Positions 26,220-48,104 of a DNA stretch of 64,000 bases are shown here, one piece after another. The notes below the pieces were generated by a model. It saw only the letters and a program-made list of their open reading frames with translations, was not told the DNA's origin and searched no databases. The first letter of the stretch is position 1; every line of letters begins with the position of its first letter. Made by a program: the position numbers and the translations under genes. Origin of the DNA: Bacteroidales bacterium (GTDB taxonomy: Bacteria > Bacteroidota > Bacteroidia > Bacteroidales > UBA932); NCBI GenBank assembly GCA_017631435.1, contig JAGBTG010000058.1, positions 56,570 through 120,569 of the forward strand. The letters run 5' to 3'.

Positions 26220-27176
26220 ATGGAACAGACTATCGCTTTATTGATCTGGATTGGAATCTCATTGGTGGCACTGATGATTTTCCTATGGTTTTTCCCTGTA
26301 ACCTTGTGGTTCCAGGCATTGATATCGGGAGTAAAGATCTCCCTTATCCAACTTGTCCTAATGAGATGGAGAAAAGTTCCTCCAGGAACAATTGTAATGG
26401 CAATGATTACCGGAACCAAAGCCGGCCTTAAACTTGAGGCAAACGAGCTTGAGGCACACTACCTTGCAAAAGGAAACGTTCCAAACGTGGTAAACGCCCT
26501 CATCTCTGCCGACAAAGCCAACATCGACCTCAACTTCAACATGGCAGCTGCCATTGACCTTGCAGGCCGTGACGTGTTCCAGGCTGTACAAATGAGCGTA
26601 AATCCAAAGGTAATCAACACCCCTCCAGTAACAGCAGTGGCAAAAGACGGTATCCAGCTGATTGCCAAAGCAAGGGTAACCGTAAGGGCCAACATCAAAC
26701 AACTTGTAGGAGGTGCAGGAGAAGAGACCGTGCTTGCACGTGTAGGTGAAGGTATCGTTTCTTCCATCGGTTCTGCAGAGAGCCACAAATCAGTTCTTGA
26801 GAACCCTGATTCAATCTCAAAACTTGTTCTTTCAAAAGGTCTTGACGCCGGAACAGCATTTGAGATTCTCTCTATTGACATTGCAGACATTGATATTGGA
26901 AAGAACATTGGTGCCGTGCTTCAGATAGACCAGGCCAACGCCGACAAGAACATTGCCCAGGCACGCGCCGAGGAGCGCCGCGCTATGGCAGTAGCCCTTG
27001 AGCAGGAGATGAAAGCCAAAGCACAGGAGGCCCGCGCAAAAGTAATTGAGGCCGAGACCGAGATTCCTCTTGCAATGGCAGAAGCTTTCCGCAACGGCAA
27101 CCTTGGCGTTATGGACTACTACAAGATGAAAAACATCCAGGCCGACACCCAAATGCGTGAAGAAATTGCAAAATAA
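26220..27176 (+). CDS. floA: Flotillin-like protein FloA
   Basis: A 318-residue member of the bacterial flotillin-like UPF0365/YqfA family. It begins with a membrane-anchoring hydrophobic segment (residues 5-45, [18 protein letters not shown]) followed by an SPFH/PHB-like domain (ANLGLDLNF equivalents, [20 protein letters not shown]). An alanine/glutamate-rich coiled coil follows ([20 protein letters not shown]). FloA organises lipid microdomains and membrane fluidity in Bacillus; the role here is inferred from that. It is the third gene of the operon, directly after nfeD. Confidence 0.93.
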
Positions 27177-27344: not shown

Positions 27345-27431
27345 GGTGAGATGGGTGAGTGGCTGAAACCACCAGTTTGCTAAACTGACGTACGGGTAAC
27401 CGTACCGGGGGTTCGAATCCCCCTCTCACCG
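27345..27431 (+). tRNA. tRNA-Ser(GCU)
   Basis: Class II tRNA with a 7-bp acceptor stem (GGTGAGA with TCTCACC) and anticodon loop TTGCTAA (anticodon GCU). It has the long variable arm (TACGGGTAACCGTA) and T-loop TTCGAAT. The 3' CCA is not encoded; the discriminator is G. It reads AGC/AGU codons. The sequence right after the gene is repeated, inverted, 130 bp downstream. Confidence 0.95.
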
Positions 27432-27457
27432 CACAACAACAGAAAAAAGCTCTCAAG
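27432..27457 (+). repeat. Inverted copy of the repeat that starts at 27561
   Basis: CACAACAACAGAAAAAAGCT at the tRNA-Ser 3' edge is the reverse complement of AGCTTTTTTCTGTTGTTGTG at 27564-27583. A further copy in the latter orientation is at 28689. The match extends into the neighbouring terminator stem with a 2-bp gap. Confidence 0.75.
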
Positions 27458-27572: not shown

Positions 27573-27672
27573 CTGTTGTTGTGCAAGGGCCCCCGCGGCA
27601 GCGGAGTGGGGAATGCTGAATGCAATGAAGCCCAATCCCCGCAGGGGAATGCCGGAGCCCCAATCCCCGCTT
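27561..27672 (+). repeat. Direct repeat, left copy, flanking the DUF6794 gene
   Basis: Begins TTGAGCTTTTTTCTGTTG, continues with a GC-rich stretch and ends GGAGCCCCAATCCCCGC. The same order of motifs recurs at 28687-28757. The left copy is longer by about 37 bp, apparently through an internal duplication of GGGGAATG and CCAATCCCCGC. The two copies bracket the 277-residue secreted protein gene. Confidence 0.75.
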
Positions 27673-27805: not shown

Positions 27806-28639
27806 ATGAGGCAATTTTGGATTATTACTCTATGTCTTACGATAGGCATAAGCGCAACTGCTCAAGACAGGCTCAAAACAACTCACGACATTAAAGCCGC
27901 CTCCGAAAAAATTGACGGGGTCTACATTCCTCGCGACATAGAAGATGCAATCAATGTCCTTGACACATGTCTGACATCTGAACAGAAGGACACATTAAGA
28001 GCTTTATCTTTTGAGGATTACAATGGGTTGCACCACGGGCTCGGGAGAGCACTACGCAACGATTGGGGGCTTTGGGGTGGTTCAAGGCTTCGTGATTACT
28101 TTACATCATTCGGAGTGTATCATCCTGATGATATGTCGGGATATATACTACTTGCCTTTTATCACCACCTTCACGGAACTGAATGCCCAAGGATTCAAGA
28201 TGTAAAGTTATCAACAGGAAGCGCTAAAAAAATAACAATATTCACAAGAGATTGGTGGCGAATTAAAGCAAGCTATAGAAGGGTTTTCAGAGAACTCAAA
28301 GACGACGGATATAAGAAGGGAGCAGAGGTGTATTATGAATATCCTTATGGATTCTCGAATGAAAAAGAGGAGAACATTTATAATGACGCCGAAAACCTCG
28401 AGATCAAAGCAAGGGGTGTGATAAAGGCATTTGACAAGAAAAACGGATATGTACTTGTTCAGATAGAGCACACTCCAGAACCTTATGGAATAATCATATA
28501 CGACGGGAATCAGCCGTGGTACGAAGATTCTTACAGAGATTATACCACATTCTCTTTAGACACACCTAATATTTTCTTTCTTCAAGAGGGTGACGAATTG
28601 TGGTTCAAATTATCAGAATTTGATACATATTGGTATTAG
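27806..28639 (+). CDS. Secreted DUF6794 protein
   Basis: A 277-residue exported protein with signal peptide MRQFWIITLCLTIGISATAQ. Residues about 40-125 match the DUF6794 pattern: YIPRDIEDAINVLDTCL, then LHHGLGRALRNDWGLWGGSR, then YFTSFGVYHPDDMSGYILL. The C-terminal half is aromatic and charged with no domain I recognise. DUF6794 function is unknown; such proteins are typical of Bacteroidota and often occur in variable regions. A purine-rich AAGAAAGGAAAT lies before the ATG, although no clear TAnnTTTG was found. The gene lies between direct repeats next to a tRNA, so it may be a mobile or laterally gained cassette; that is inference. Confidence 0.75.
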   Translation: MRQFWIITLCLTIGISATAQDRLKTTHDIKAASEKIDGVYIPRDIEDAINVLDTCLTSEQKDTLRALSFEDYNGLHHGLGRALRNDWGLWGGSRLRDYFTSFGVYHPDDMSGYILLAFYHHLHGTECPRIQDVKLSTGSAKKITIFTRDWWRIKASYRRVFRELKDDGYKKGAEVYYEYPYGFSNEKEENIYNDAENLEIKARGVIKAFDKKNGYVLVQIEHTPEPYGIIIYDGNQPWYEDSYRDYTTFSLDTPNIFFLQEGDELWFKLSEFDTYWY

Positions 28640-28686
28640 TCAAACGATGGAAAAGGTGACGCAGTTCATTTTACACCCTCGTTACT

Positions 28687-28757
28687 TTGAGCTTTTTTCT
28701 GTTGTTGTGACAGGGCCCTGCGGCATCGGAGAGGGGAATGGCGGAGCCTCAATCCCC
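28687..28757 (+). repeat. Direct repeat, right copy
   Basis: TTGAGCTTTTTTCTGTTG through GGAGCCTCAATCCCC, matching 27561-27672 apart from an internal gap. It runs straight into the first copy of the RAYT-associated repeat at 28762. Confidence 0.75.
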
Positions 28758-28761
28758 ACCC

Positions 28762-29011
28762 CCAAGACGATGGCACACTAAATCCCCTTCACACCCCATT
28801 CCTACCGATACTCCCCGTGCCACCCGTAAAGAAACCCTACGAATGGCACACAACGCCCCCTCTACAAGCACTCGCAGGACACTTCAAGCGTTCCATCGTC
28901 TTGGCGAAACAATCGTCCATCCTGGCCAAACAATAGCCCATCCTGGCCAAACCTCATCCCCGGCAATAAAACAAGCCCCACAACCTCATCCCGAGACTGC
29001 AGGGCCTGCCC
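28762..29011 (+). repeat. RAYT-associated structured repeat, copy A
   Basis: Imperfect direct copy of 30142-30399. It holds an outer stem CCAAGACGATGG (28762-28773) pairing with CCATCGTCTTGG (28893-28904). An inner stem GTGCCA (28817-28822) pairs with TGGCAC (28844-28849) around a conserved GAAACC loop. It ends with a 37-bp block (28975-29011) identical to 30363-30399. Between them, TCCTGGCCAAAC is tandemly repeated at 28919-28952. No coding potential is evident. It lies downstream of the transposase gene. Confidence 0.82.
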
Positions 29012-29099
29012 GACTTAACCTAACTTAAAAAACTATTTCATCTATAGAACAATAGTTCCCACTAATAGTTCAAACATTGGAAAAAGATTTCAATATCTC

Positions 29100-30044
29100 C
29101 TAAACAAATCCCTTCAGTATCTCCGCATCCAGATGAAGCATCCTGGCAATTTGTTTTACTGTAGAAGCATACTCATACCTCAACTTTTTGGCAAGCTTTA
29201 CCCTGGAATTCACACTGAGCATCCTCAAGTCTGCTTCACCGAAAAGCTCCAGTGACAGCTTCCCCACAATTACCCTCAACTCCTTATCCGGCAAAAAGGC
29301 CCTGGTTCCAAATGAGAAATAATTGTCCATCTCACCCTCAAGTTTCCTGGATAGAAAATAAAGATACCTTCCTGGCGTCCTGTAAAGTTTCTCCAAAAAT
29401 TGAACATCCACAAAACAGCGGGGATTGAGCATTCCATTCCTGTCAACCAGCCAGTCTTGCGGCAACTGATGATGGGTTCCCAACAACATCCACTGCTCCC
29501 GTTTGGAGATAGAATCCAACCTGCGGAACTGCCCTACATCCTCAGCCGCTCTGAATATGAATCTGGCCACACCCCATGGATACTCATCGGGCATCCTGCG
29601 CCATCCTGCCACAATCGGATTTCTGTCGAGATAGGCCAATGTGGCCAGCAATCTGTCGGGAGTATCAATTTTTATGATTTGAGCGGGCAATGTATGGAGG
29701 TGTCCGGTTACACCATATCGGGAAGAAATGTACTTGCCCTTGAGATTCTTGAACCTGGAGATGTATTCTTTGCATGCAGGCATTGTTCCCCTCAGAACAA
29801 AATGGACATGATTATCCATAAGCACAAATGACACCTGTATGGCTCCCGACAAAAAAGCACAAATTCCACACCTGTTTACACCTGCTATGAAATCACGGTC
29901 ATCCTGGAACATCCAGTCCAAAAAAGCGCCATCTGTACAGATGTGGTAAAACGCCTGATCTCCCCCATTAAAAAAAATCCTTTCCACCGAAAAAAGAAAT
30001 GTCTGGCCTACACAAATCCTTCCCTCCAATTCCACCCAGGCCAT
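29100..30044 (-). mobile_element. REP-associated tyrosine transposase (RAYT, Y1/HUH family)
   Basis: A 314-residue protein of the TnpA_REP/RAYT branch of IS200-like Y1 transposases. These are single-copy HUH nucleases thought to mobilise short palindromic repeats. Motifs in order: QAFYHICTDG (30-39); the HUH histidines in MDNHVHFVL (H79, H81); and the catalytic tyrosine helix AYLDRNPIVAG (Y138), followed by YPWGVARF. The C-terminus (SRVKLAKKLRYEYASTVKQI) is a helix-turn-helix-like DNA-binding segment. The frame is intact, so it may be active. I chose ATG at 30044; a GTG at 30056 is also possible. Two direct copies of a structured repeat flank it on both sides. Confidence 0.88.
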
Positions 30045-30141
30045 ATTGGCGGACACATGAAGTCTCTACAAAGTTTGCGAATATTTTTTTGCTATACAAA
30101 CATTTCTTTTCCTCCCGGGCTACGCTCCCACCCCCTCCTTG

Positions 30142-30399
30142 CCAAGACAACGGCACACCAAATCCCCGCCACACACCCCTCCAGACCACCCTCCCCGTGC
30201 CATCCATAGAGAAACCTTACGGATGGCACACCGTACCCCATCCACAAACACATTTGTGCAAGATCGAGTGTGCCATCGTCTTGGCAATAAATCCACACCA
30301 AATTATTTATCATCCCCTACTCTCAGGCATTGCGGTAGCCGTGGAATCTGCCAAAAAAACAGGCCCCACAACCTCATCCCGAGACTGCAGGGCCTGCCC
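30142..30399 (+). repeat. RAYT-associated structured repeat, copy B
   Basis: Direct copy of 28762-29011 on the other side of the transposase gene. Outer arms are CCAAGACAACGGCACAC (30142-30158) and GTGTGCCATCGTCTTGG (30268-30284), 15 of 17 bases able to pair. The inner hairpin GTGCCATCC (30197-30205) pairs perfectly with GGATGGCAC (30221-30229). The 3' 37-bp block (30363-30399), identical in copy A, closes CAGGCCC with GGGCCTG here. It lies about 100 bp upstream of the transposase start. Confidence 0.82.
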
Positions 30400-30413
30400 A
30401 ACTTTAAATATCT

Positions 30414-31562
30414 CTACTCTATAAAATTCCTATAAAGGCACTCTACGCTCTCACAAAGGATATTGGCAAACACCTTGTCGGTTTTGGCATTGCAGCCATT
30501 GGTCATCACTACAAAGCCCCATTTCTCATCCTTGTCCCAGAACATTGCAGTATGCGCACCAAGAGCCAAGCCGTCGTGGCCTACAAGCCTGTGCCCTGCC
30601 AAAAGGTCATTGGTCCGCAACAATGCCATTCCATAACGTTCACCCTCGTAGTTGGTGGTTGTAATCTCGCTCTGCATAAGTTCACAACTCTGGGGAGAAA
30701 GGATTTTTACATTGCCGATAGTACCCATGTTCATATGCATCATCATTACTTTTGCAAGATCTGCCGCAGATATTTTAAGACCTCCTGTAGGTGAAAACAA
30801 TGTAGCAGAATAACCCATCCTGTAGTTGGCCAACCCCTCCTCAATTGAAGGATAGGCATCAGATTTCCTGTATGTAGAATTGGCCTTGTCCAAAGTATAA
30901 ATCCCTACAAACCTTGTTGAGTCCAAAAAGTGCACATTATGGTTTGCATATACTCCAAGGGGAGCAAGAACGTGATTATGAACATACTCATCAAACCTCT
31001 CGCCGCTCACTTTCTCCACAATTGCTCCAAGGGTATTGAAACCGAGGTTACAATACTGGTATTTGCTTCCCGGCTCCCAATCATTCCAGGCTTTCTCCCA
31101 AGTAGGGGAAGTCTCCCTGTTGAGATTGTCAAATGTAAAATATCCGTTTGCATCACTCATGCTGGAGGTATGCGAAAGGAGCATCCTCACTGTAATTGGA
31201 GTATCCGGGAACTTTGGATTCCTTATTACAAAACCCATCAGTTCCGACACATCTGCATCCAGGCTCAGTCTCCCGGCCTCAACAAGCTGCAAAACGGATG
31301 TTGCAGTAAATGATTTTGAGATGGAAGCTATCCTCAACACATCACCGTCTTCCCACAAAACCTTATTCTCCCAATCCTTGTAGCCAAATGTATTGGTGTA
31401 AACTATCCCACCATCCTTCACCACGGCCACAGCCAGGCCCACAGCCTCATTCTTCTCCACAATCTGCGACAGTTCAGCCTCCGCAATTCCGGCACGGGAG
31501 GTACATGCCACTGCCAGCATCATGGCAGCACACCCTAATAGGGTTTTAACAAACTTTTTCAT
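30414..31562 (-). CDS. Serine hydrolase, class C beta-lactamase/DD-peptidase family
   Basis: A 382-residue exported lipoprotein-type protein (hydrophobic start, then AVAC with the lipid-acceptor C20). The serine beta-lactamase-like fold is marked by SISK (S80, K83), YCN (Y170, N172) and HDG (H329, G331), which replaces the KTG box as in esterase and D-aminopeptidase members. Substrate could be peptidoglycan stem peptides or a small ester; there is no evidence for true beta-lactam resistance. The next gene on the same strand starts 30 bp further upstream, so the three minus-strand genes to 33261 may form one unit. Confidence 0.85.
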   Translation of the reverse strand: MKKFVKTLLGCAAMMLAVACTSRAGIAEAELSQIVEKNEAVGLAVAVVKDGGIVYTNTFGYKDWENKVLWEDGDVLRIASISKSFTATSVLQLVEAGRLSLDADVSELMGFVIRNPKFPDTPITVRMLLSHTSSMSDANGYFTFDNLNRETSPTWEKAWNDWEPGSKYQYCNLGFNTLGAIVEKVSGERFDEYVHNHVLAPLGVYANHNVHFLDSTRFVGIYTLDKANSTYRKSDAYPSIEEGLANYRMGYSATLFSPTGGLKISAADLAKVMMMHMNMGTIGNVKILSPQSCELMQSEITTTNYEGERYGMALLRTNDLLAGHRLVGHDGLALGAHTAMFWDKDEKWGFVVMTNGCNAKTDKVFANILCESVECLYRNFIE

Positions 31563-47895: not shown

Positions 47896-47912
47896 AGTCC
47901 TAAAAAATTTCG

Positions 47913-47986
47913 TAGTCCCGCGCGGATTTGAACCGCGGACCCCCACATTATCAGTGTGGTGCTCTAACCAACTGAGCTACGAGACT
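47913..47986 (-). tRNA. tRNA-Ile(GAU), downstream copy
   Basis: Acceptor AGTCTCG pairs with CGGGACT (one G-U), anticodon loop TGATAAT (GAU), T-loop TTCAAAT. No encoded CCA. It differs from the upstream copy at three positions, two of which keep pairing in the T stem. Confidence 0.95.
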
Positions 47987-48008
47987 GTATAAAACATCAT
48001 ATTACTTG

Positions 48009-48082
48009 TAGTCCCGTGCGGATTTGAACCGCAGACCCCCACATTATCAGTGTGGTGCTCTAACCAACTGAGCTACGGGACT
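48009..48082 (-). tRNA. tRNA-Ile(GAU), upstream copy
   Basis: Acceptor AGTCCCG pairs with CGGGACT, anticodon loop TGATAAT (GAU). It is 22 bp upstream of the second copy and begins 22 bp after the sufS stop codon, with CTGTCGGGAA in the gap. Confidence 0.95.
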
Positions 48083-48104
48083 GTAAAATTTTCTGTCGGG
48101 AAGA

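Follow-up and report, generated by a model that had tools for sequence, protein, structure and literature searches.

A RAYT-like transposase gene of a Bacteroidales bacterium lies between direct copies of a foldable tandem-dimer element

In a 64-kb stretch of DNA from a gut Bacteroidales bacterium (the window; positions 56570-120569 of contig C5 in a source genome labeled G000, which measures 2.17 Mb and is 88% complete), a RAYT-like HUH/Y1 transposase gene stands between two same-facing copies of a 143-nt palindromic element. We read this locus as REPtron-like, that is, as a Y1 transposase paired with its own cognate element and acting on folded single-stranded DNA, and we give this reading a probability of about 0.6. 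The association of gene and element is evident in the anatomy of the locus, in further copies of the element, in the covariation of its stems and a concerted change of its stem motif, in its conservation around the closest RAYTs, in its presence and absence between species, and in the pattern around other families of such genes. Throughout, G numbers denote genomes (all drafts), C numbers contigs, and L numbers extracted loci.

The transposase gene and its flanking elements

The gene (29100..30056, minus strand) encodes 318 residues from a GTG start, with NHVH at residues 82-85 (HUH at 83-85), a YLDRNP motif with the putative catalytic Tyr142, 57 residues from HUH to Tyr, and a conserved C-terminal tail. 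H83, H85, Y142, and N146 are invariant in 28 aligned sequences, as are Q302 and R305 in the tail. The initial annotation had described an intact HUH/Y1 gene between two repeat copies of the same orientation, and both the motifs and the coordinates bear this out; the tyrosine that it called Y138 is numbered from the next Met and becomes Y142 from the GTG. Pfam Y1_Tnp matches 22 of the 28 family members at an expectation value (E) of up to 1, the best at 7e-5, and the helix-turn-helix (HTH) models HTH_38 and Sigma70_r4 each match one member weakly. A protein search of G000 with the window RAYT returned three matches only, the two others at 28% and 23% identity. A further Y1-like gene of this genome (L239, C36:52898-53281; a frame of 269 residues, 28.1 bits to NCBIfam NF047646) is not among them.

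Downstream of the RAYT gene lies element copy A (28762..28904, plus strand), and upstream of it copy B (30142..30284, plus strand), in the same orientation. Both are training copies of a covariance model built on 12 copies (eight from G000, two each from G024 and G015), which they match at E 5.6e-33 and 4.2e-33, respectively. The direct repeats recorded here are D1 (28762-28871 / 30142-30251, 76%), D2 (28964-29025 / 30352-30413, 89%), and also D4. Each element copy holds two plus-strand units, every one with a motif X, a long loop, and a motif x. They lie in copy A at 28771..28822 (X being TGGCAC and x GTGCCA) and 28844..28895, and in copy B at 30151..30202, in the same alignment columns as copy A, and at 30224..30275, placed by alignment columns and the 73-nt periodicity. 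Across 23 aligned copies, the halves of the element are 56% identical at a 73-nt offset vs. 20-35% at 13 other offsets; the halves are homologous at this offset, and the element is therefore a tandem dimer of a 73-nt X-loop-x unit, with TGGCRC as X and GYGCCA as x.

We compared the upstream with the downstream flank of each gene and counted a direct or inverted repeat at a score above 60. The window RAYT locus scored 126 for direct and 36 for inverted flanks, the inverted score arising from the self-complementary arms. Among the 40 window open reading frames (ORFs, mechanically called) of at least 200 residues, the RAYT gene had the highest direct score; an adjacent DUF6794 gene reached 77 and the rest at most 28.

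Folding, covariation, and concerted motif change

In DNA folding, none of 200 shuffles folds as well as either window copy, on either strand (z -3.7 to -6.1). The stems previously described are present: the outer arms, with 12 perfect pairs in copy A, the inner GTGCCA..TGGCAC hairpin, and in copy B a perfect 9-bp inner stem, together with 20-nt outer arms that are 90% complementary. The claim that pairing is kept despite sequence change is supported by compensatory changes in the 23 copies, a sample of five species, with both sides changed in 14 of the 29 pairs, where shuffles give 10.2 and 4 of 500 reach 14. Standard pairs make up 82.9% of pair cells, and six slid versions of the structure are 28-42% paired, a comparison in which the true register is favored, the structure having been drawn from these same copies, which are moreover related. 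Compensatory changes occur in the inner as in the outer stem (seven pairs each), the outer arms comprising 17 pairs.

The state of the stem motif is identical in all four arms of 17 copies (nine of GGCGC type, hereafter G, and eight of GGCAC type, hereafter A), and the other six consist of four A-type copies with one C and two G-type copies with one change. By genome, G015 is G-type in six of six copies and G022 in three of five, G024 is A-type in three of three and G000 in five of eight (the other three with one C), and the sole G007 copy is A-type with one C. Beyond the 143 nt, conservation falls, and the left side slightly favors pyrimidines. The sequence GT[AG]G occurs within 8 nt of none of the four hairpin feet in any of the 23 copies. 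Pair mismatches on the plus strand are A.C in 66 cases vs. G.T in 27, and 16 pairs lean that way vs. 3; this excess may, as a lead only, point to the RAYT-sense strand.

Copies in the genome and its relatives

A covariance model search of G000, following the proposal in the initial annotation that further copies be sought, found nine copies, namely the eight training copies and one truncated copy; relatives carry copies too. Only two lie within 28000-31500, and own-genome searches found none elsewhere in the window. Among the 39 genomes of the genus set, matches occur in eight: the six of a core group (G000 and its five closest relatives by floA, at 97-99%, which are G006, G007, G015, G022, and G024), G005, and G008, the last with one weak match. 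The expectation that copies lie outside genes is met by most of them: 18 of 23 overlap no mechanically called ORF of at least 150 residues, and five do overlap one, three wholly and two partly. For the 22 copies with an ORF on both sides, these neighbors are co-directional in 13 cases, convergent in six, and divergent in three; the one remaining copy is unassigned.

Two loci of G000 show further arrangements. At L115 (C42, 373-2284), two same-facing elements, one of them truncated, bracket a gene pair that we take to be antitoxin-like and nucleotidyltransferase-like. At L116 (C33:139000-146500), both window-type elements adjoin solo elements that by eye resemble the flank element of L086, the locus of a different RAYT in G024. 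Set against the three RAYT matches in G000, such solo elements suggest that elements persist after their enzyme is gone or arrive before it.

Conservation, gain, and loss between species

The closest RAYTs, in G024 (83% identity) and G015 (68%), have the element on both sides, oriented to the gene as in the window. The orthologous site is anchored by a gene that we take to be floA-like (26220..27176, plus strand) and the adjoining tRNA-Ser (GCT; 27345..27432, plus strand), which are common to G000, G005, G006, G007, G015, G022, and G024. Downstream of this pair, G000, G024, and G015 carry the full element-RAYT-element cassette; a single element is present in G022, half of one (a 70-nt match) in G006, and weak matches in G005; G007 has no element, only an array of another repeat resembling repetitive extragenic palindromic (REP) sequences. 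Between G024 and G007 the left edge is close, homology stopping at 1560 and the first element starting at 1566; the right edge is not sharp, homology being back only ~120 nt past the second element. The solo element of G022 may be the product of a cassette collapse. In G015 (L216, C11), the tRNA-Ser beside floA, which adjoins the RAYT cassette, is inverted relative to the other species, and the right-hand neighbor of the cassette differs among G000, G024, and G015.

At a second site, an extra G022 element lies between two conserved genes, and the flanking matches stand 346-357 nt apart. They are 70-108 nt apart in G015, G024, G007, and G006, which by eye have a hairpin resembling a terminator there, and 187 nt apart in G000, with no element found in the locus; G005 is matched on one side only. 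The covariance model detected no element at this site in the relatives' loci, and weak matches (L245, E 5e-5; L242, E 0.19) lie ~600-850 nt off it. A third site is common to four species, the right flanks of the copies on G000 C42, G024 C55, G007 C26, and G015 C29 being 95-98% identical. There, the G000, G024, and G007 copies are 93-96% identical and the G015 copy is 68-70%; G000 and G024 are A-type, G007 is A-type in three of four arms, and G015 is G-type in all four. Three other candidates for an empty-site comparison were set aside in favor of the G022 site. Beside an S9 peptidase gene, the next gene differs in the relatives; beside a ferritin-like gene, five relatives are without the element and again the next gene differs, so neither case is clean. 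For the C26 copy, orthologues of its neighbor were found in only two of six relatives, with no element there.

Direct flank repeats around related genes

To set the locus among its relatives, we applied the flank comparison to RAYT loci picked by sequence similarity, whose sequences are related and hence nonindependent. The genus set came from 58 loci and was reduced to 55 by leaving out L033 and L052 (flanks too short) and L103 (a slicing artefact); it includes weaker RAYT matches without an extracted locus only in part. A second set of named loci, among them Candidatus Cryptobacteroides, Coprenecus, Merdivivens, and Muribaculum, holds the best 80 of at least 490 relatives and has four loci in common with the genus set. 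Direct flank repeats occur at 29 of the 55 genus loci, and inverted ones at three, two of these without a direct one; among the named loci, 37 of 80 have direct repeats and six inverted, none inverted alone at threshold. The 319 mispaired controls gave one direct and no inverted repeat. The flank repeats are very different in sequence from gene to gene. Two RAYT-like genes have inverted flanks at scores of 100 (L027, on C3 of G000) and 161 (L100, on C189 of G006).

Folding, 6-mer, and strand tests left out the duplicates of genus loci L123, L124, L127, and L134, and the folding tests also left out L039 (which looks like a coding duplication) and L046 (an identical stretch at a contig start); of 62 repeats, 55, 58, and 55, respectively, were within length limits. 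With the downstream copy folded and control segments taken from named loci without repeats, 38 of 55 flank repeats have a fold z below -3 vs. 10 of 96 controls. A 6-mer and its complement alternate at least four times in 18 of 58 repeats and never in shuffled versions; the window locus reaches three alternations by this exact-letter count.

Proposed mechanism and alternatives

These direct-flanked transposase loci point to a form of a known class of mobile DNA that has so far gone unrecorded. In IS200/IS605 insertion sequences, the hairpins of both ends lie on the same strand; the flanking copies of the window RAYT face the same way, and one strand therefore carries both, as at those ends. For the window enzyme we infer binding, nicking, rejoining, and mobility. 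The four motif copies can form a stem inside each unit, or else pair to give one outer and one inner stem. On single-stranded DNA, the enzyme would bind the element in its folded form, make a nick next to it via Tyr142, and rejoin the ends; single elements could be copied or moved to new places in this way. Recombination between the same-facing flanks, whether catalyzed or ordinary, would delete the gene, and a solo element would stay behind. Of the original suggestion of a new type of RAYT substrate, the association is well supported, given the copies, the compensatory changes, the two closest RAYTs, and the wider flank pattern, and the action of the enzyme on the element is presumed.

Several observations weigh against this REPtron-like reading. 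Curated models barely recognize the window protein, which scores 16.8 bits against NCBIfam NF047646 (REP_Tyr_transpos; cut-off 80) and has no match in a Pfam scan. Nine copies is a low number beside classical REPs, and the best model match in G006 (C107) sits in the repeat of another RAYT (L085); the model therefore also reaches related elements, and the weak G005 and G008 matches may be of this sort rather than window-type. Neither a window-type element nor long direct flanks (scores 27-44) accompany three RAYTs at 52-58% identity, two of them in G007 and one in G015. G022 and G005, each about 89-90% complete, have elements and no RAYT match, which may reflect a lost gene, an incomplete metagenome-assembled genome, or another enzyme. 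Direct flank repeats above threshold are lacking at 26 of 55 genus and 43 of 80 named loci. By eye, no clear target duplication was found at the edges of the 23 copies, and no guide sequence was recognized. Finally, the 55 flank repeats of other families show no strand bias in folding (27 of 55, p 0.94).

It is unlikely, in our judgment, that the elements function as structured RNA, or as terminator segments in untranslated regions, their stems kept for RNA folding and the RAYT lying between them by chance. The low overlap with ORFs and the mainly co-directional or convergent neighbors would suit such a role, as would the strand-biased mismatches and the G022 copy at the place that in relatives holds, as judged by eye, a hairpin resembling a terminator. 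Against it, three species keep the RAYT bracketed by same-facing copies, counterparts with unlike sequences surround many other RAYTs, and the four arms change their motif together, as a protein-recognized hairpin might. No Rfam family matches at its gathering score, the three matches (E up to 5) each falling far below it, and no result favors the structured RNA that the initial annotation had offered as its other option over folded single-stranded DNA.

We also think it improbable that the RAYT is domesticated, with a host role (repair, replication forks, or gene control) or self-control via its flanks, and with copies that spread rarely. The close RAYT is single-copy in G000 and one dispersed copy is common to four species, as such a role would have it, but presence and absence differ between close species and G022 has a species-specific extra copy. 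Still less credible is a miniature inverted-repeat transposable element moved by an ordinary DDE transposase via the outer inverted arms. Its 143 nt, 17-pair outer arms, and dispersal would fit, and a G022 copy on C58 has similar letters at both edges (ATC, ATCAC); however, no target-site duplication is evident by eye in the other listed copies, the element is tied to a Y1 gene in three species, and the inner stem varies by compensatory changes just as the outer does. A simple local duplication without further meaning, which the confinement of two copies to 28000-31500 within the window might recall and which the initial annotation made dependent on a lack of other copies and random covariation, is already refuted by the nine genomic copies, those in relatives, and the nonrandom covariation.

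Returning to a RAYT-like enzyme with a cognate element, a broader and more tentative picture, to which we give somewhat less than even odds, is that of a large unrecorded branch of Bacteroidales single-strand transposases with long, gene-specific, direct foldable repeats. The stem motif would be the "address" of the enzyme, rewritten in all arms and copies as the enzyme diverges; each enzyme would have its private population of elements, and flank recombination would decide whether the gene is expelled or kept. Apart from that picture, this Bacteroidales group shows a RAYT-like logic in another geometry, and its gene/repeat pairs, dozens of them, differ in sequence. The joint change of all four arms from one motif type to the other among related species is a natural experiment on enzyme-element recognition and joint evolution.

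The end block and neighboring repeats

Each window element is accompanied by a 37-bp end block, at 28975..29011 (minus strand; a hairpin downstream of the RAYT gene) and at 30363..30399 (minus strand; a hairpin and then a T run, downstream of a beta-lactamase-family gene). The initial annotation had counted it as part of a 240-260-bp repeat unit; the block is indeed identical in both copies, but the element has a length of 143 nt, and the block is a terminator-like repeat in its own right. A single ~250-nt unit is ruled out because both parts occur independently: G000 has the element without the block on C26, C33 (two), and C29 (two), and the block without the element on C45, C31, and C36. Outside the window, copies of the block in this genome lie at C45:115600, C42:536, C31:2806, and C36:3150. 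Folded on the minus strand, it forms a hairpin of 14-17 pairs, followed in copy B by seven T. On the strength of this hairpin and of the seven T in copy B, we read the block as a recurrent terminator-like repeat; a terminator consensus scanner reported none at the end blocks (two sites vs. 2.1 expected, one of them inside copy B). By eye, several copies have a conserved stretch AAGTTAGGTTAAGTCGGGC ahead of the hairpin on the minus strand, and on C42 and in G024 and G007 an extra stretch is inserted beside the block.

Directly left of element copy A lies the REP-like repeat GGGGAATGGCGGAGCC (28733..28748, plus strand), whose array occupies the matching place in G007. Direct copies of it, at 27644-27659 and 28733-28748, flank the DUF6794 gene (27806-28639) that scored 77 above; this gene was not seen at the floA/tRNA-Ser site in the six relatives compared. 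Elsewhere in the window, a 96-nt unit is repeated in tandem at 47912-48085 (1.8 copies, 96% match), seemingly through duplication of a tRNA gene.

Comparison with known systems

A literature search that covered few subscription journals turned up no account of RAYTs with direct-repeat flanks in Bacteroidales. The definition of RAYTs, drawn mostly from Proteobacteria, rests on REPs that are inverted and have GTAG at the foot (PMC2817692, PMC3733652); the REPs flanking their genes are "always" inverted (PMC2817692), and one biochemical comparison centers on three REPtrons (PMC8266576). The window locus resembles the RAYT/TnpA_REP REPtrons of E. coli, Stenotrophomonas, and Pseudomonas in its HUH and single Tyr in a Y...NP motif, in palindromic repeats of its own that bracket the gene, in dispersed and mostly extragenic copies, and in having unlike repeats for unlike genes. 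It differs in that the flanks, inverted in canonical REP/RAYT loci (Nunvar 2010), are direct in the window, G024, and G015; in showing no GT[AG]G at any of the four feet in the 23 copies; in having a 143-nt dimer of 73-nt units rather than palindromes of 20-50 nt; in its copy number, with nine found in an 88%-complete genome rather than hundreds; and in the long C-terminal extension of its protein.

TIRYT genes and their TIRtrons are RAYT-like genes without GTAG REPs and with modest repeat families; the terminal inverted repeats around them carry the motif GGGGWSAS (PMC3733652). The window family shares with them the lack of a GTAG REP and the longer flanking repeats, some self-complementary. 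Their repeats are inverted, whereas here direct repeats occur at 29 of 55 loci and inverted without direct at two. According to PMC6006769, 20 of 26 described TIRYTs belong to subclass 2.1, which has a long C-terminal HTH tail (Bac_DnaA_C / HTH_23 / HTH_28) and is reported without REP-like sequences. The same source describes a Bacteroidetes subclass of TnpA_Y1, 2.6, with "atypical secondary structures" at the gene flanks and copies elsewhere in the genome, a median length of 179 residues, the Y motif YIH[QN]NP, and a median HuH-Y distance of 82 (PMC6006769). From that description, subclass 2.6 is the nearest Bacteroidetes group: it shares foldable flanks with genomic copies and differs in its protein, ours having 318 residues, YLDRNP, and 57 residues from HUH to Tyr.

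The IS200/IS605 elements, finally, have hairpins of ~20-25 nt with a tetranucleotide guide and multiply as insertion sequences, unlike the window element and its gene, which is not multiplied in that manner. Their chemistry is single-stranded (PMC6006769, PMC8266576), and the same-facing flanks of the window gene place both elements on one strand, as such chemistry would use.
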